Origin: Comamonadaceae bacterium ALPHA2B
GTDB lineage: Bacteria; Pseudomonadota; Gammaproteobacteria; Burkholderiales; Burkholderiaceae_C
Reading direction: 5' to 3'
DNA length: 64,000 nt
NCBI GenBank assembly: GCA_005503065.1
Contig: SCOE01000007.1
Span: 1-64,000 of the forward strand
A model generated the notes under the pieces. That model searched no databases and was not told the DNA's origin. It saw only the letters and a program-made list of their open reading frames with translations. Below are positions 38,164 to 45,529 of the stretch, piece after piece (the stretch's first letter is position 1; each line of letters starts with the position of its first letter). Both the position numbers and the translations under genes were made by a program.

Positions 38164-38981
38164 GCCGGGACATTCTGCTGTCCGCCCAGGACCTGAGCGT
38201 GCGCTTCGGCGGCGTGCTGGCCGTCAACAAGGTGAGCTTCGAGGTGCGGCGTGGCGAGGTGTTCACGCTGATCGGGCCCAACGGTGCGGGCAAGACGACG
38301 GTGTTCAACCTCATCAGCCGCATCTACCAGCCGACCACCGGCCAGATCACCTGGCATGGCGGCCCGGCATCCGGTGGGCCGCTGAAGCTCACCGACCAGC
38401 CGCCGCACGCCATCGCGGCGCTGGGCATCGCGCGCACCTTCCAGAACATCGAGCTGTTCGAGCATGCGACGGTGCTGCACAACCTGCTGATCGGCCGCCA
38501 CACGCACCGCGCGACGGGCTTCTTCGGCGAGCTGTTCTTCACCGCCGCCACGCGGCGCGCCGAGATCGCCGCGCGCGAGAAGGCCGAGCAGGTGATCGAG
38601 CTGCTCGACCTCCAGCACCACCGCGATTCGCTGGTGGCGGGGCTGCCCTACGGCGTGCGCAAGGTGGTGGAGCTGGCGCGTGCGCTGTGCACCGAGCCCA
38701 AGCTGCTGCTGCTCGATGAGCCATCCTCTGGCCTGAACGTGGAGGAGACGGCCGACATGGCCTTCTGGATCCAGGACATCCAGCACGAGCTGGGCATTTC
38801 GGTGCTGATGGTGGAGCACGACATGACGCTGGTGTCGAAGGTGTCGGACCGCGTGCTGGCGATGAACCAGGGCGAGGTGCTGGCGATGGGGTCGTCGCGT
38901 GAGGTGCAGTCGGACCCGAAGGTGGTCGAGGCGTACCTTGGGACGATCGAGGACGTGAGCAGCTTGCGGAGGGCGGCATGA
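38160..38981 (+). CDS. livG: Branched-chain-type ABC ATPase LivG
   Basis: 273 residues. Walker A GPNGAGKT (39-46), FQNIELF after the Q-loop position, signature LPYGVRKVVELARAL (the LivG variant of LSGG), Walker B LLLLDEPSSGLN and HD-switch VEHDMTLVSKVSDRV. One of two ATPases energising LivHM. Normally followed directly by livF; here 577 bases of palindromic repeats intervene. Confidence 0.94.
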   Translation: MSRDILLSAQDLSVRFGGVLAVNKVSFEVRRGEVFTLIGPNGAGKTTVFNLISRIYQPTTGQITWHGGPASGGPLKLTDQPPHAIAALGIARTFQNIELFEHATVLHNLLIGRHTHRATGFFGELFFTAATRRAEIAAREKAEQVIELLDLQHHRDSLVAGLPYGVRKVVELARALCTEPKLLLLDEPSSGLNVEETADMAFWIQDIQHELGISVLMVEHDMTLVSKVSDRVLAMNQGEVLAMGSSREVQSDPKVVEAYLGTIEDVSSLRRAA

Positions 38982-39055
38982 TGGGTTCGGACATGTCGTG
39001 GGCCGTGGGCCGTCCGCCCGTCATGCGCCGCCGGCCCTGCGATGCCGGTGCGCCG

Positions 39056-39191
39056 GCCCCCTTCGGGGGCTTCCCTGCGATGCTCGGCCGGGGCTCGCGT
39101 CGCAGAACTCGCTGCGTTCACTTCGTTCACTCCGCTCAGACAGCTGCGACGAGTCAGTGCACGAAGCACGCCTGTCCTTCGGCAGGCGTGC
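39056..39191 (-). repeat. Structured GAGCG repeat, copy A
   Basis: Read on the minus strand: hairpin GCACGCCTG/CAGGCGTGC (39191-39166), stem CGTCGCAG (39151-39144) ... CTGCGACG (39105-39098) enclosing TGAGCG, two 9-base GTGAACG units and AGCGAGTT, then CGAGCATCGCAGGGAAG, then hairpin GCCCCC-GAA-GGGGGC (39070-39056). Similarity to copy B continues further outward on the hairpin-1 side. Confidence 0.85.
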
Positions 39192-39384
39192 GTCGCCCCG
39201 GCCTGCGCTTCTCGGCGGCGCACAAGGCATCGCATGGCCGGCGGCGCATGCCGGGCTCCGAGGTGGCGCGCACGCCGCGCCTCTTGCAGGGCACTGCCGC
39301 AAACCCGCTTGATTCGGGCGCAATGTGTCCACGGCGCGGGGCGGCAGGCAGCGGGGAGCGAATCGGCGCGGCCGAGCAGCGCAG

Positions 39385-39479
39385 CCAGGCGGGGGAAAAG
39401 AAGGACGCATGTCTGAGCGAAGCGAGTTTGCGTCCTTCCCCCGCCTGGCGAGCAGCGCAGGGAAGTCGCCGCAGGCGAC
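39385..39479 (+). repeat. Structured GAGCG repeat, copy C
   Basis: Stem arms CCAGGCGGGGGAA (39385-39397) and AAGGACGCA (39401-39409) pair with TGCGTCCTT (39429-39437) and TTCCCCCGCCTGG (39436-39448). The loop contains TGAGCGAAGCGAGTT, lacking the two 9-base units of copies A and B. It is followed by CGAGCAGCGCAGGGAAG and hairpin GTCGCC-GCA-GGCGAC (39465-39479). Confidence 0.85.
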
Positions 39480-39558
39480 CCGCGGCGTTTGAGCGGACCG
39501 GTGCCTGCCGTCCCGCGCCGGCGCGCCCCTCATGTGACTTGTCGGAAGGCGCCTCAGC

Positions 39559-40332
39559 ATGAGCACCGAAGTCCTCCAACTGCTCAACGTCGAGAGCGCC
39601 TACGGCCCCATCAAGGCCATCCGCGGCGTGAGCCTGAGGGTGCGCCAGGGCGAGATCGCCACCGTGCTGGGCAGCAACGGCGCGGGCAAGACGACGATCC
39701 TCAAGACCATCTCGGGCATCATCGACCCGCGCAAAGGGTCGATCCACTTCAAGGGCCTGGACATCACCGCCAAGGACCCGGCCTTCATCGTGCAGCAGGG
39801 CCTGTCGCACGTGCCCGAGGGGCGCGAGGTGTTCCCGCTGCTGTCGGTGAAGGACAACCTGCTCATGGGCGCCTACACCCGCAGCGACCGCGACGGCGTC
39901 GCGCGCGACATCGAGACGGTGTTCGGCTACTTCCCCATCCTGCGCGAGCGCGCCGCGCAGGATGCGGGCCTGCTCTCGGGCGGGCAGCAGCAGATGCTCG
40001 CCATCTCGCGCGCCATCATGGCCGCGCCGCAGCTCATCCTGCTCGACGAACCTTCGCTCGGCCTCTCGCCCAAGCTCACCAAGGAGATCTTCGAGATCGT
40101 CGTGCGCATCAACCGCGAGCGCGGCACCACCATCCTGCTGGTCGAGCAGAACGCCAACATGGCCCTCAACGCCGCCGACCATGGCTACGTGCTCGAGAAC
40201 GGACGCATCGTCATGGAAGACACCTGCGAGCGCCTGCGCGAGAAGGACGACATCAAGGAGTTCTACCTCGGCCTGCAGGACGAAGGCGCTCGCGGCGAGC
40301 GCCGCTGGAAAAAGAAGAAGACCTGGCGATGA
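39559..40332 (+). CDS. livF: Branched-chain-type ABC ATPase LivF
   Basis: 257 residues. Walker A LGSNGAGKTT (residues 37-46), FIVQQGLSHVPEGREVFP, signature LLSGGQQQMLAISRAIM, Walker B LILLDEPSLGLSP, VEQNANMALNAADHG. Slightly long at the C-terminus with a basic tail (RRWKKKKTWR). Second ATPase of the Liv set; stop overlaps the CoA ligase start by 4 bases, showing translational coupling to that enzyme. Confidence 0.94.
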   Translation: MSTEVLQLLNVESAYGPIKAIRGVSLRVRQGEIATVLGSNGAGKTTILKTISGIIDPRKGSIHFKGLDITAKDPAFIVQQGLSHVPEGREVFPLLSVKDNLLMGAYTRSDRDGVARDIETVFGYFPILRERAAQDAGLLSGGQQQMLAISRAIMAAPQLILLDEPSLGLSPKLTKEIFEIVVRINRERGTTILLVEQNANMALNAADHGYVLENGRIVMEDTCERLREKDDIKEFYLGLQDEGARGERRWKKKKTWR

Positions 40333-42221
40333 GCGCATCCACCTCCGCCCCCCTCCACACCCCCGCCGGCCTGTGGGACCTGGGCCACCTCCGGCCGCGC
40401 ACCGACATCGCCGTGCCGGGCGACACCATCCCCGCCGTGTTCTGGAACGCGGTGGAACTGCGCAACGATGCCGTGTGGATGCGCCAGAAGGAACTGGGCA
40501 TCTGGCGCACCTGGACCTGGCGCCAGACCGCGGAGGCGGTGCAGGAGATCGCCGCCGGCCTGCTGGCGCTGGGCTTCGCGCGGGGCGAGTGCGCGTCGAT
40601 CCTGTCGAACACGGTGGTCGAATGGGTGCTGTGCGACCTGGCCGTGCTCAGCTGCAACGGTGTGGCCAACGGCATCTACCCGACGGATGCCGCCTCGCAG
40701 GTGCACTACCTGTGCGAGGATTCCCGGACCACGCTGCTCTTCGTGGAGGACGACGAGCAACTCGACAAGGCGCTGGAGGTGCGCGAGCGTCTGCCGTTGC
40801 TGCGCAGGATCGTCGTGTTCGACATGGAAGGCCTGCGCGATCTCGACGACCCGGGCGTCATGAGCCTCGACGCCGTGCGCGCGCTCGGCCGTGAGCACCT
40901 GCGGGTCCATCCGCAGGCCGTGCGCGAGCGCGTCGACGGCTGCCGGCCGGAGGACCTGGCCATCCTCATCTACACCTCGGGCACCACCGGCAAGCCGAAG
41001 GGGGCGATGCATTCGCACCATGGTCTCGTCTACACCATGCGTGGCTACAACACCCTGGTGGCGCAGGACGAGCGCGACGAGCGCATGTGCTTCCTGCCGC
41101 TGTGCCATGTGGCCGAGCGCATGGGCGGCGAGTACTTCGCGATGTACACCGGCTCGGTGCTCAACTTCGTCGAGAACCCCGAGACGGTGCCCGAGAACGT
41201 GCGCGAGATCGCGCCCACGGTCTTCACCGCCGTGCCGCGCGTGTGGGAGAAGTTCTATTCCGGCGTGATGATCGCGCTCAAGGAGGCGAGCGGCGTGCAG
41301 CAGGCCGCCTACGCCTGGGCCATCGGCGTCGGGCGGCAGATCGCCGACAAGGTGCTGGCGGGCGAGCCGGTCGACGCCGGGCTGAAGTTCCGCTTCCGGC
41401 TCGCGCGCTGGCTGGTGCTGGACAACGTGCGCAAGCTCATCGGCATCCACCGCGCGCGCTTCCTCGTCACCGGCGCGGCGCCGATCTCGCCCGAACTGGT
41501 CAGGTGGTACCTCTCGCTGGGCGTGCCCATGCTGGAGGTGTGGGGCATGACCGAGAGTTGCGGCGCCTCCACCGGGGTGCCGGCGGCGCGCATCAAGCCC
41601 GGCTCCATCGGTCCGGCCGCCGGCTACAACGAAGTGCGCATCGATCCCGCCACAAGCGAGATCCTGGTGCGCGGCCCGAACGTGTTCATGGGTTACCTGA
41701 ACCAGCCCGAGAAGACCGCGGAGACCATCGACGCCGAGGGCTGGCTGCACACCGGCGACGTCGGCCTGATGGAGGAGGACGGGTATTTCCGCATCACCGA
41801 CCGCATGAAGGACATCATCATCACGGCGGGCGGCAAGAACATCACGCCCAGCGAGTGGGAGAACGAGCTGAAGTTCAGCCCCTACGTGACCGATGCGGTG
41901 GTCATCGGCGATGCGAAGCCCTACCTGACGGTGATCATCATGATCGACCAGGAGAACGTGGAGAAGTTTGCGCAGGACCACGACGTGCCCTTCAGCAACT
42001 ACGCCAGCCTCACGCGCGCCCAGGAAGTGCAGGACCTGATCCAGGGCGAGATCGACCGCGTGAACGCGAAGTTCGCGCGCGTGGAGCAGATCAAGAAGTT
42101 CTTCCTGCTCGACACGCAGCTCTCGGCCGAGGACGAGGAGCTGACGCCGACGATGAAGCTCAAGCGCAAGCTGGTGCAGACGAAGTACGCCTCGCAGATC
42201 GAGGCCATGTACCGAAGCTAG
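40329..42221 (+). CDS. AMP-forming acyl-CoA synthetase (long-chain FadD/FAA-like)
   Basis: 630 residues from MSASTSAPLHTPAG. Adenylation motif YTSGTTGKPKGAM begins at residue 215; further motifs LVTGAAPISPELVRWYLSLG, EVWGMTESCGAS, GWLHTGDVGLMEEDGYF and KDIIITAGGKNITPSEWE. It forms acyl-CoA from a carboxylic acid, ATP and CoA in the cytosol. Being coupled between livF and livK, it probably activates the acid imported by this Liv system. The chain and ring preference cannot be told. Confidence 0.93.
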   Translation: MSASTSAPLHTPAGLWDLGHLRPRTDIAVPGDTIPAVFWNAVELRNDAVWMRQKELGIWRTWTWRQTAEAVQEIAAGLLALGFARGECASILSNTVVEWVLCDLAVLSCNGVANGIYPTDAASQVHYLCEDSRTTLLFVEDDEQLDKALEVRERLPLLRRIVVFDMEGLRDLDDPGVMSLDAVRALGREHLRVHPQAVRERVDGCRPEDLAILIYTSGTTGKPKGAMHSHHGLVYTMRGYNTLVAQDERDERMCFLPLCHVAERMGGEYFAMYTGSVLNFVENPETVPENVREIAPTVFTAVPRVWEKFYSGVMIALKEASGVQQAAYAWAIGVGRQIADKVLAGEPVDAGLKFRFRLARWLVLDNVRKLIGIHRARFLVTGAAPISPELVRWYLSLGVPMLEVWGMTESCGASTGVPAARIKPGSIGPAAGYNEVRIDPATSEILVRGPNVFMGYLNQPEKTAETIDAEGWLHTGDVGLMEEDGYFRITDRMKDIIITAGGKNITPSEWENELKFSPYVTDAVVIGDAKPYLTVIIMIDQENVEKFAQDHDVPFSNYASLTRAQEVQDLIQGEIDRVNAKFARVEQIKKFFLLDTQLSAEDEELTPTMKLKRKLVQTKYASQIEAMYRS

Positions 42222-42258
42222 ACAGACCGGTTCCCATCAACGAGAGGAGACAGCCGCC

Positions 42259-43425
42259 ATGAAGACCTTCCGCTTTGCCGCCGTCGCGATCGCCGTCCTC
42301 GCGCTCGGCACGCCGTTCGCCCACGCCCAGCAGGGCGTGAGCAAGGACGAGATCCGCATCGGCACCATCCAGGACCTGTCGGGCCCGCTCGCCGGCTTCG
42401 GCAAGCAGTCGCGCAACGGCATGCAGCTGCGCGTGGACGAGATCAACGAGCAGGGCGGCATCAACGGCCGCAAGCTCAAGCTCTACGTGGAGGACTCGGG
42501 CTACGACCCGAAGAAGGCCGTGCTGGCGGCGCAGAAGCTGGTCAACCAGGACAAGATCTTCATCATGGCCGGCCACATCGGCACGGCGCAGAACATGGCG
42601 GCGATGCCGGTGCAGTTCGACAAGAACGTCATCAACTTCCTGCCAATCACCGCCGCGCGGGAGATGTACGAGCCGCTGAACCGCCTCAAGTACTCCTTTG
42701 CCGCCACCTACTACGACCAGATCCGCCTGGCGCTGCCCAAGATGGTCAAGGACAAGGGCGCCAAGAAGGTCTGCACCATCTACCAGGACGACGAGTTCGG
42801 CCTGGAGGTGCAGCGCGGGGCCGAAGCGGGCCTCAAGGCCGCGGGCATGGAACTGGCCGAGAAGACCTCGTTCAAGCGCGGCGCCACCGACTTCAGCTCC
42901 CAGGTCGCGAAAATGAAGGCCGCCGGCTGCGACCTGGTGGTGCTGGGCACCATCATCCGCGAGACCATCGGCACCATCGGCGAAGCGCGCAAGACCGGCT
43001 TCAACCCGACCTTCCTCGGTTCCAGCGCGGCCTACACCGACCTCATCCACAAGCTGGGCGGCAAGGCCATGGACGGCATGTACGCGACCATGACGGTGCA
43101 GAACCCGTACACCGACGAGGCGGACCCCAAGATCCGCTTCTGGGCCAACAAGTACAAGACGAAGTTCAACGAGGACCCGACGGTGTTCTCGGTCTACGGC
43201 TACATGATCATCGACACCTTCGCACAGGTGGCGCAGAAGGCCGGCGCCAACCTGAGCACCGACTCCTTCATCAAGGTCATGGACGCAAGCACCTTCCCGC
43301 CCGACATGTTCGGCGCGCCGAAGATGACCTACACCGCCGCCAAGCGGCTGGGCAACGACCAGTCGCGCCTGTCGCAGATCGTGGATGGGAAGTGGAAGGT
43401 GGTGTCGGACTACGTGGCGCAGTAG
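42259..43425 (+). CDS. Liv-type ABC substrate-binding protein
   Basis: 388 residues with signal peptide (TFRFAAVAIAVLALGTPFAHA, cleavage before QQG). Periplasmic-binding type 1 fold: IRIGTIQDLSGPLAGFGKQS, LYVEDSGYDPKKAVLAAQKL, VCTIYQDDEFGLEVQRGAEA, GATDFSSQVAKMKAAGCDLV. Such receptors serve amino acids, amides, urea or aromatic acids; here the ligand is probably the acid activated by the upstream ligase. Closest relatives are LivK/HAAT family. Ends the operon, followed by repeat DNA. Confidence 0.93.
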   Translation: MKTFRFAAVAIAVLALGTPFAHAQQGVSKDEIRIGTIQDLSGPLAGFGKQSRNGMQLRVDEINEQGGINGRKLKLYVEDSGYDPKKAVLAAQKLVNQDKIFIMAGHIGTAQNMAAMPVQFDKNVINFLPITAAREMYEPLNRLKYSFAATYYDQIRLALPKMVKDKGAKKVCTIYQDDEFGLEVQRGAEAGLKAAGMELAEKTSFKRGATDFSSQVAKMKAAGCDLVVLGTIIRETIGTIGEARKTGFNPTFLGSSAAYTDLIHKLGGKAMDGMYATMTVQNPYTDEADPKIRFWANKYKTKFNEDPTVFSVYGYMIIDTFAQVAQKAGANLSTDSFIKVMDASTFPPDMFGAPKMTYTAAKRLGNDQSRLSQIVDGKWKVVSDYVAQ

Positions 43426-43692
43426 AGCCTGGGCGGCGGGTCTGAAGCGGGTGCTGTTTCGCCCGCAGCCGGCGCGTGGAGGCGTCGGCTGTGCATCGGG
43501 CGCATCTTTTCGCCGCCACGTAGCCGAACGCGCTGGCTCCGCGCCGCCACATCCCCGAAAGGCATGGCCTGCGTGCAGGCAGGGGGAAGGGCGCGGTCGG
43601 AGGCGGTCGATCCCCCCCATTGCAGGCCCTGGTGCCGGTGAGGGCGTGGCGGCGCGCCTGTGGGGTGCCGAGGAGCGCAGCGCGGACGGGCT

Positions 43693-43828
43693 GCGGGCCT
43701 GCCGAAGGACAGGCCCGCTTCGTGATCTGACTCGCGGCAGCTGTTTGAGCGCAGTGAACGCAGTGAACGAAGCGAGTTCTGCCGCGGCCCGTTCGCGCGA
43801 GCACCGCAGGGCAGTCGGCGAAGCCGAC
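43693..43828 (+). repeat. Structured GAGCG repeat, copy B
   Basis: Hairpin GCGGGCCTG/CAGGCCCGC (43693-43718), stem CGCGGCAG (43733-43740) with CTGCCGCG (43779-43786) enclosing TGAGCG, two 9-base GTGAACG units and AAGCGAGTT, then CGAGCACCGCAGGGCAG, then hairpin GTCGGC-GAA-GCCGAC (43814-43828). Every stem differs from copy A by compensating changes. Confidence 0.87.
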
Positions 43829-43936
43829 CACCCCACCGAAGCGCCGACGCGCCCTCACCGGTGCCGGGGCCGGCCCATCGTCCCGAACGTGCCGTCGCCA
43901 GCCACGAACCACTGGCCCAGCCTCCATGCGAGCCCG

Positions 43937-43966
43937 CAAAAGAAAAGGGGCCCCCGCAAGGGCCCC
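43937..43966 (-). terminator. Intrinsic terminator of the tctBA operon
   Basis: On the minus strand: GGGGCCC, 6-base loop, GGGCCCC, then TTTTCTTTT. Lies 46 bases past the tctA stop codon, as expected for a rho-independent terminator. Confidence 0.85.
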
Positions 43967-44011
43967 GGTGCAACGAACAGGCGGGCCACACGCCCATCTG
44001 CGCATGCAACC

Positions 44012-45529
44012 TCACTCTTCGACGAAAGCCTCTTCGCGCTTGGATTTCACCGAAGGCAGCAGCACGATCACCAGCAGCGCCAGGGCGGCGACCAGCAGGC
44101 CGGCCGAGATGGGCCGGGTGACCAGCACGCTCCAGCTCCCGCGGGACAACAACAGCGCCCGGCGCAGGTTCTCTTCCATCATCGGCCCGAGGATGAAGCC
44201 CAGCAGCAACGGCGCCGGTTCCACCCGCAGCTTGATGAACACGTAGCCGATGAAGCCGAAGATGGCGACCATCCACACGTCGAAGGTGTTGTTGTTGGTC
44301 GAGTACACGCCGATCGCGCAGAACAGCACGATGGCCGGGAACAGCAGGCGGTACGGCACCTTCAGCAGCTTGATCCACATGCCGATCAGCGGCAGGTTCA
44401 GCACGATCAGCATCAGGTTGCCCAGCCACATCGAGGCGATGAGGCCCCAGAACAGCTCGGGGTTGCTGGTCATCACCTGCGGGCCGGGCTGGATGTTGTG
44501 GATGGTCATCGCGCCGACCATCAGCGCCATCACCGGGTTGGGCGGGATGCCCAACGTCAGCAGCGGGATGAAGGACGTCTGTGCGCCGGCGTTGTTGGCC
44601 GACTCGGGGCCTGCCACGCCGCGGATGTTGCCGCGGCCGAAGGCGACCTCGTTCGGGCCCATCTTGAGCTTCTTTTCCAGCGCGTACGACGCGAAGGACG
44701 CGAGCAGCGCACCGCCGCCGGGCAGGATGCCCAGGGCCGAGCCCAGCGTGGTGCCGCGCAGCACGGCCGGCGCCATCTTCTTGAAGTCCTCCTTGGTCGG
44801 CCACAGGCCCGTCACCTTGCTGGTGAAGACCTCGCGCTCCTCGTCGGGCTGCGACAGGTTGCCGATGATCTCGCCGTAGCCGAACACGCCCATCGAGATG
44901 ACGATGAAGCCGATGCCGTCGGTCAGTTCCGGAATGTCGAAGCTGAAACGTGCCACGCCCGAGTTCACGTCGGTGCCCACCAGGCCCAGCAGCAGGCCCA
45001 GCACCACCATCGCGATCGCCTTGAGCAGCGAGCCGGAAGCCAGCACCACCGCGCCGATCAGGCCCAGCACCATCAGGCTGAAGTACTCGGCCGGGCCGAA
45101 CTTGAAGGCCAGTTCCGTGAGCGGCGGCGCGAAGGCCGCCAGGATGATGGTGCCCACGCAGCCGGCGAAGAAGGAGCCCAGCCCGGCTGCCGCGAGGGCG
45201 GGGCCGGCGCGCCCCTGCCGCGCCATCTGGTAGCCGTCGATGCAGGTCACCACCGAGGACGATTCGCCCGGCAGGTTGACCAGGATGGCGGTGGTCGATC
45301 CGCCGTATTGCGCACCGTAGTAGATGCCGGCCAGCATGATCAGCGCCGACACCGGGGGCAGCGCATAGGTGGCCGGCAGCAGCATCGCGATGGTGGCGAC
45401 CGGGCCGATGCCCGGCAGCACGCCGATCAGGGTGCCCAGGATGCAGCCGATCAGGCAGTACAGCAGGTTGGTCCAGGTGACCGCGACGCCGAAGCCCGTG
45501 GCCAGGTTGGCGAAAAGATTGAAGTCCAT
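44012..45529 (-). CDS. tctA: Tripartite tricarboxylate transporter large permease TctA
   Basis: 505 residues, about 12 membrane segments. TctA marks: LLYCLIGCILGTLIGVLPGI, PATYALPPVSALIMLAGIYY, GAQYGGSTTAILVNLPGES and GIPPNPVMALMVGAMTIHNI. Inner-membrane channel subunit of a sodium-coupled carboxylate importer that uses a periplasmic Bug receptor. Follows tctB by 16 bases; the divergent Bug gene at 46372 may supply the receptor. Confidence 0.96.
   Translation of the reverse strand: MDFNLFANLATGFGVAVTWTNLLYCLIGCILGTLIGVLPGIGPVATIAMLLPATYALPPVSALIMLAGIYYGAQYGGSTTAILVNLPGESSSVVTCIDGYQMARQGRAGPALAAAGLGSFFAGCVGTIILAAFAPPLTELAFKFGPAEYFSLMVLGLIGAVVLASGSLLKAIAMVVLGLLLGLVGTDVNSGVARFSFDIPELTDGIGFIVISMGVFGYGEIIGNLSQPDEEREVFTSKVTGLWPTKEDFKKMAPAVLRGTTLGSALGILPGGGALLASFASYALEKKLKMGPNEVAFGRGNIRGVAGPESANNAGAQTSFIPLLTLGIPPNPVMALMVGAMTIHNIQPGPQVMTSNPELFWGLIASMWLGNLMLIVLNLPLIGMWIKLLKVPYRLLFPAIVLFCAIGVYSTNNNTFDVWMVAIFGFIGYVFIKLRVEPAPLLLGFILGPMMEENLRRALLLSRGSWSVLVTRPISAGLLVAALALLVIVLLPSVKSKREEAFVEE

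Follow-up and report, generated by a model that had tools for sequence, protein, structure and literature searches.

Inverted pairs of covarying structured repeats at gene junctions in Burkholderiales, probably folding as single-stranded DNA

Repeat copies at the ALPHA2B locus

The stretch analysed here, hereafter the window, comprises 64,000 nucleotides of Comamonadaceae bacterium ALPHA2B (GCA_005503065.1, contig SCOE01000007.1, positions 1 to 64,000). Three copies of a structured repeat were verified in it: A (39056-39191, minus strand), C (39385-39479, plus strand) and B (43693-43828, plus strand). An earlier note, made from the sequence alone, had described them as separate copies with changing stems and constant unpaired blocks, and all the stems it quoted were found in A, C and B. 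The stem alternatives between copies are CGTCGCAG/CTGCGACG versus CGCGGCAG/CTGCCGCG and GCACGCCTG/CAGGCGTGC versus GCGGGCCTG/CAGGCCCGC. The tail-hairpin stems vary yet pair, with GCCCCC/GGGGGC in A, GTCGGC/GCCGAC in B and GTCGCC/GGCGAC in C. The block GAACGAAGCGAGTT occurred three times in the window (up to two mismatches), against 0.33 expected; three or more occurrences were reached in one of 100 shuffles.

The shared plan stood, but its extent had been drawn too short, with the outer stems and a second loop strand lying outside. Extra outer inverted repeats enclose the copies (31 nt in A, 23 nt in C, 46 nt in B), and a second conserved internal-loop strand, CGAGNAGCGCAG, is located 5' of the core. 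Read on its own strand, a unit starts with the outer stem, the internal-loop strand CGA-GNAGC-GCAG and a stem. Long-type units have an additional side hairpin and TTCGTGANCTGACT after this first inner stem. The 3' part consists of a stem with the apical segment TGAGCG...AGCGAGTT, another stem, the strand CGA-GCANC-GCAG, the tail hairpin and the outer stem. Where the two internal-loop strands oppose, they form an A·A mismatch; the adjacent base pair (columns 16/232) was A-T in 38, G-C in 35 and C-G in 34 of the 110 sequences that had letters in these columns, and unpaired in 3.

All three repeats are real, but A and C form opposite ends of a single ~505 bp element rather than separate copies. 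Of a second element, only the half B survives: no model match to a partner unit was found at its site in the window, and the orthologous site held a full pair in six other genomes. A terminator-like hairpin with a T run (43966-43947) lies between unit B and a minus-strand gene (44012-45529), which we take to be TctA-like and which had no NCBIfam match. All coordinates are collected in Table 1.

Table 1 Positions of the paired element A-C, the single unit B, their parts and neighbours in the window, and of the type-2 copies elsewhere in the genome.
Feature	Position	Strand	Details
LivG-like gene, 5' neighbour of A-C	ends 38981		best NCBIfam match, below curated cut-off
Whole A-C paired element	39016-39520	.	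outer inverted repeats; model matches minus then plus; empty site in six congeners
Unit A, R-like end	39016-39256	-	outer stem 39226-39256/39016-39046, 31 nt, 94% complementary; core 39048-39223
A tail hairpin	39056-39070	-	GCCCCC-GAA-GGGGGC, GNA triloop
A internal-loop motif, 3' strand	39073-39086	-	CGAGCATCGCAGGG
A apical segment	39106-39138	-	TGAGCG...AGCGAGTT, two GTGAACG-type repeats
A internal-loop motif, 5' strand	39203-39214	-	CGAGAAGCGCAG
Centre separating units A and C	39257-39331	.	centres poorly conserved at orthologous sites examined
Unit C, short type without side hairpin, L-like 3' flank	39332-39520	+	outer stem 39332-39354/39498-39520; core 39364-39487
C internal-loop motif, 5' strand	39373-39384	+	CGAGCAGCGCAG
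C apical loop	39414-39428	+	TGAGCGAAGCGAGTT
C internal-loop motif, 3' strand	39449-39462	+	CGAGCAGCGCAGGG
C tail hairpin	39465-39479	+	GTCGCC-GCA-GGCGAC
LivF-like gene, 3' neighbour of A-C	39559-40332		best NCBIfam match, below curated cut-off
Unit B, R-type end, alone	43622-43874	+	outer stem 43622-43667/43829-43874; core 43660-43836
B internal-loop motif, 5' strand	43669-43680	+	CGAGGAGCGCAG
B side hairpin	43693-43718	+	GCGGGCCTG-CCGAAGGA-CAGGCCCGC
B stem with apical segment	43733-43786	+	CGCGGCAG/CTGCCGCG, apical TGAGCG...AGCGAGTT
B internal-loop motif, 3' strand	43798-43811	+	CGAGCACCGCAGGG
B tail hairpin	43814-43828	+	GTCGGC-GAA-GCCGAC
Type-2 copies	G000 C8, C9, C14, C24, C31, C78, C77:86065		loci L001, L003, L007, L008, L009, L014, L013

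Covariation, pair architecture and distribution

Two covariance models were built: R1 from four units, with C left out because MAFFT misaligned it against the long units, and R2 from 114 units. In the alignment of the 114 units, 95.2% of the cells paired. Double-sided changes occurred in 47 of 53 pairs, a count that none of 500 shuffles reached, and the covariation score was 0.452, compared with 0.110 in shuffles. Because such shuffles ignore relatedness, an R-scape-like test was run, with a FastTree tree and 40 null alignments in which substitutions were re-dealt over the branches. Its rows were the 84 of 114 units left as non-redundant after removal of fragments and of units at least 95% identical. 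Against this tree-based null, 22 column pairs were significant (E<0.05), 20 of them among the 48 testable model pairs; the two lying outside the model were nested in the apical region. The remaining 28 testable model pairs were not significant, many of them because there was little change in them. The unpaired motifs were among the most conserved parts of the units. Pairing is kept by covariation, and the view of the earlier note that the fold, not the sequence, is kept held on the full alignment as well as in the R-scape-type test that it had proposed.

The pair architecture is fixed. Neighbouring matches less than 1500 bp apart (n = 89) were divergent, minus then plus, in 88 cases, on the same strand in one and convergent in none; in the 88-pair set, at least four loci (L144, two in L169, and L183) are counted twice, as they came from both of two collections. 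The units are ~240-270 nt long and branched, with a three-way junction. Their ends were typed by short motifs, GATTT/TGAGC loops for L and GCCT/GAAGC for R. L+R pairs made up 48 of the 88, compared with three clear L+L, one clear R+R and three probable R+R pairs, the rest being unclear on at least one side. Where both ends can be typed, an element usually has one of each kind. Core-to-core spacing was 111 in all six pairs of G120, a genome in a single contig and 100% complete, while G193, where the eight pairs with the best scores were measured, had 112 in seven of them; both genomes are complete or nearly so. It was more variable in the source genus, up to 432. Alignment of non-orthologous copies revealed sharp ends (CGCGGCAGG...CCTTTGCCGCG in G120).

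Some copies in G120 and G231 had a further terminal inverted repeat, GCTTGCGGCCCTTTGCTGAC, of ~25 bp and ~55 bp outside, covarying too (L321-L323, L327, L328 and L276-L278, all of one genus). It was not seen around the G120 copies L279-L281. Three pairs in G019 (L088, L093, L087) enclosed an orphan open reading frame of ~100-280 aa between like ends (L-L or R-R), a hint that such ends might take along passenger genes; the three products had no Pfam match at the curated cut-off. The centre of the pair at L071 holds a different repeat, TTCGACAGGCTCAGCCCGAACGG, presumably a repetitive extragenic palindrome (REP) of the type served by REP-associated tyrosine transposases (RAYTs).

The family extends far beyond three chance matches in one window. 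As the earlier note had suggested, the source genome and its relatives were scanned: R1 gave 21 matches in the whole source genome and matched 21 of 40 relatives, comprising all 15 genomes of the genus, five of nine other genomes of the family and one of 16 genomes outside the family but within the order. R2 (E<=1e-4, with stricter filters) matched 114 of 200 family genomes, in 87 of 141 genera. Unit counts per genome from the 40-relative, 200-genome and A-C-site surveys are lower bounds. A pattern scan of named genomes had, among the matches listed, Xenophilus, Pseudacidovorax, Rubrivivax, Methylibium, Ideonella, Rhizobacter, Piscinibacter, Albitalea, Ramlibacter, Quisquiliibacterium and Zoogloea, and in these and other genera the model matched at least 114 places, which supplied the units for R2. 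The highest number among genomes with full match lists was 68 unit matches in G227; G120 had 14, G136 at least 14, and G231 at least five pairs.

No Rfam family matched the window at its gathering score, and six matches at E<=10 in 38950-43950 were all far below theirs. Searches of the open-access literature found no description of the element family. The elements form a widespread, apparently undescribed Burkholderiales family, for which BRE and the Burkholderiales-1 motif are two candidates for comparison. A phage origin was considered and rejected: the element L276:540-1300 matched none of 50,697 phage records. Two pattern scans of viral contigs returned 1 and 29 stretches, with a true divergent pair in one of the 30 contigs (L347, IMG/VR contig 2816332133_000001).

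Presence, absence and retention at gene junctions

Copies are present in some and absent from other close relatives at gene-gene junctions. For five sites of G120, the flanks were joined and looked for in eight congeneric genomes. G231 had no unit at any of them, and at four it had just a short junction between flanks of 85-96% identity. The fifth (L320, G231:C11:486500-487800) contained ~458 bp of other DNA without a model match, the edges of which resembled the outer inverted repeat. One gene junction (L280, L329, L325, L330) was TGA-C-ATG, with a single intervening base, in G231 and had three bases in G230, while it was occupied in G120 by a pair and in G232 by one dissimilar unit. The genes at this junction were judged NifE-/NifN-like by eye only. 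Targeting of stop/start junctions is possible. Among the matches listed for the 15 congeners, the A-C site was filled in G000, G004, G008, G010, G013 and G014, and empty (gap of 155 bp or less) in G003, G005, G006, G007, G009 and G011; G001, G002 and G012 were placed in neither class. Units lay between divergent genes in 4 of 75 contexts (the 88 pairs minus 13 lacking a gene on one side; gene calls by a codon-score script, not annotation).

Seven near-identical 'type 2' copies of ~580 bp, which share the core motifs, were found at different sites of the source genome. They have an extra T/A-rich tail hairpin per end, and despite their closeness the copies differ by whole base pairs in their tail hairpins. 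Among plasmid records, B had no match, the type-2 element had partial matches in five, and L276:540-1300 had one short match. In Variovorax paradoxus and Comamonas odontotermitis, type-2-related DNA was located on large plasmids, right after genes annotated as ABC substrate-binding proteins, and 44 nt of a type-2 tail (L003:1867-1910) matched three Pasteurella multocida plasmids at 93%.

Retained copies were compared at two sites with seven loci each, excluding a gene-side row that was out of register. Average orthologous identity was 0.86-0.91 for the cores and 0.78-0.94 for the outer arms, against 0.58-0.65 for centre and outside; gene conversion may contribute to the figure for the cores. 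In one unit at the C11 site, another subtype had taken the place of the entire core, with outer stem and flanks nearly unchanged.

Folding molecule, rival explanations and known systems

Within helices, G·U outnumbered A·C on the units' own strand by 165:24 (63:5 in R, 48:1 in L and 54:18 in untyped units). As the core alignments favour G·U, the outer arms were realigned with equal scores for G·U and A·C, and the outer stems gave 197:64. The own-strand excess of G·U implies that a single strand of each unit folds, namely the one leading outward from the centre, which is the 3'-terminal strand on both sides. In co-directional contexts, antisense units were 95.6% paired (G·U:A·C 46:5) and sense units 95.5% (33:5). 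With antisense units as well paired and as biased, read-through mRNA is unlikely to be what is selected. No sigma-70-like promoter was found in the window at 38980-44010, and among 196 units none was followed by a T5 run in the 60 nt 3' of its core. Among 207 tail hairpins, 143 had triloops, 117 of these being GNA; GNRA occurred once and TNCG never. GNA mini-hairpins in DNA are described as extraordinarily stable and nuclease-resistant (PMC4686876), and loop type was likewise used by Weinberg et al., there arguing for RNA in the STAXI motif (PMC2864571). The tail-loop type in our units points to DNA, and the folding molecule is probably single-stranded DNA.

The most serious rival is that the elements are divergent structured RNA pairs, or an RNA device at gene ends (a bidirectional 3'-end or stability element), in which case the covariation would be that of RNA. 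Covariation together with a one-strand G·U bias is a classic sign of RNA, the units sit at gene ends and seldom between divergent genes, and orthologous units are kept while centre and outside drift. We consider this explanation rather unlikely, given that promoters and T5 runs were lacking in the regions searched, that the centres are poorly conserved, that antisense units pair equally with a similar bias, and that the tail loops are mainly GNA triloops rather than GNRA or UNCG, with no Rfam match in the window at a gathering score. The earlier note had left three options. Of these, the mobile single-strand unit is favoured by polymorphic insertion, the own-strand G·U bias and the GNA triloops, the RNA element ranks below it, and a termination site is disfavoured by the missing T5 runs and the equal retention of antisense units.

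An improbable alternative is a cruciform or nucleoid site acting as double-stranded DNA, in protein binding, supercoiling or replication. The long, near-perfect palindromic arms, retention at orthologous sites in several species and location at gene ends would suit it. The asymmetry of G·U over A·C is unexpected if both strands fold alike, and the elements come and go among close relatives. Covariation free of function, produced by template switching in quasi-palindromes or fold-back copying and spread between cores by conversion, is more improbable again. It would account for the C11 unit, in which the entire core but not the outer stem was replaced, and for near-identical type-2 copies with hairpins differing by whole pairs. 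Strand-blind fold-back correction, however, predicts equal G·U and A·C; moreover, one-sided intermediates (T·G, C·A, T-A) were seen at one pair among three orthologs, and unpaired motifs are among the most conserved parts.

The earlier note had called the repeat more than a decayed REP and had proposed a genome-wide search for a RAYT-type transposase. Its Y1_Tnp domain (PF01797) was not found in four of eight element-bearing genomes (G120, G231, G227, G136), so that a RAYT is seemingly not needed; in the source genus, 14 of 15 genomes had a single match, the exception (G003) having two unit matches only. R1 had no match in 20 Y1_Tnp loci, and R2 had only three in eight such loci, all in L336 and weak (E 0.33-0.84). 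A RAYT as the mover was rejected because PF01797 was not found in the four carriers, barring a diverged Y1 protein missed by this profile. The search did not support a RAYT, and the branched, inverted-pair units bear out that they are more than a decayed REP. Inverted REP doublets (REPINs, or bacterial interspersed mosaic elements, BIMEs) moved by a RAYT therefore have the slimmest chance of all, despite the inverted doublet plan, singlet remnants, intergenic location and single Y1_Tnp match in most congeners, the units also being ~10x the length of a REP.

Among other enzymes, Y2_Tnp (IS91 type) was found in one of nine genomes. The integron integrase TIGR02249 was above cut-off in seven of nine, a survey without element-free comparison genomes, and not in the source genome or G074. 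No unit was found in 105,846 bases around seven integron integrases, and the enzyme is kept as a mere lead. At L337 (G120:C1:3092000-3109000), CGTTAGGC repeats stand beside an integron integrase, like an ordinary cassette array.

We consider it reasonably probable that the window has one complete copy (A-C) and one half copy (B) of a non-autonomous Burkholderiales mobile element whose 3'-terminal strands fold as single-stranded DNA and which depends on a trans-acting enzyme. Its two branched hairpin ends of ~240-270 nt point away from each other around a short centre, and the strand from the centre to each outer end would fold during end processing. The recognition signal, read in trans by a nuclease or transposase borne by the host or by an element, may consist of the branched hairpins with their GNA caps together with the twin GA/GCA internal loops. 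New copies would arise by insertion between genes, and exchange of cores between copies could spread variants while each copy retained its internal pairing. A more specific version is doubtful but conceivable: new mobile DNA with ends like inverted terminal repeats, in which GNA-capped 3'-strand hairpins are read by shape in trans, loosely like parvoviral terminal repeats, with targeting of stop/start junctions within operons, pick-up of passengers and core exchange that keeps self-complementarity.

Several points weigh against a mobile element folding as single-stranded DNA. The case for DNA over RNA is indirect, resting on loop type, strand bias and promoter lack; transcripts leading outward from the centre would produce identical folded strands. 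Because the model to which the core alignments were fitted favours G·U, the outer-stem count alone is free of this bias, and 64 of the 207 tail loops were not triloops, a TACC loop being frequent among them (13). Inspection by eye showed no target-site duplication at the element ends, the junctions having at least 30-45 nt of unaligned DNA. Deletion in G231 is possible at each site, so that the polarity of insertion is argued rather than proven. Strong conservation at orthologous sites could mean a host function, not mere mobility. The pairs L125 and L185 are L+L without cargo; like ends are therefore not peculiar to cargo copies. No copy carrying a transposase between its ends was seen, although no systematic search for one was made, and no enzyme was identified.

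A structured element at gene junctions that is this common in its family, and unmatched in the searches of Rfam and the open-access literature, is of interest in itself. If the single-stranded DNA interpretation is true, the units offer naturally occurring large DNA folds whose covariation is backed by statistics, from which rules of single-stranded DNA structure could be learned. They would point to an enzyme that reads DNA by its shape, and covariation alone would be no proof of RNA.

The element is best placed among the non-autonomous inverted-pair mobile repeats, though not as a REPIN, and it shares traits with several known systems. Integron attC sites, with core sites GTTRRRY and RYYYAAC, are recombination sites kept by fold over sequence and used as a folded single strand. 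In contrast, GTTRRRY together with RYYYAAC occurred in the 60-nt flanks of none of 196 units, and no unit was present at the seven integrase loci. The Burkholderiales-1 motif is a structured candidate of the same order, marked '?' in a table in which its Rfam number was not seen (PMC2864571). BRE is, like the present units, repeated GC-rich and mostly intergenic DNA, reported from Comamonadaceae, Bordetella and Azoarcus; by its description it is ~90 bp long and in places tandem, in variable number (PMC3110155), whereas our units form inverted pairs. With REPINs and BIMEs, which are described as non-autonomous, extragenic inverted palindromic doublets with singlets as remnants, predicted to fold as single-stranded DNA or mRNA (PMC3116915), the elements have these features in common. 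REPs measure a few tens of bases, while the present units are 240-270 nt long and have a three-way junction, conserved internal loops and L/R ends; the RAYT-type gene, not found in four carriers, is not flanked by units, and the most units seen in a genome were 68 (G227). Bacterial miniature inverted-repeat transposable elements are likewise short, non-autonomous and intergenic, with inverted ends and sometimes passenger DNA (PMC10969869). The present elements differ in that neither a target-site duplication nor a parent insertion sequence was found and that fold rather than sequence defines their ends; they have the terminal inverted repeats and the polymorphic insertion by which such elements are recognised.

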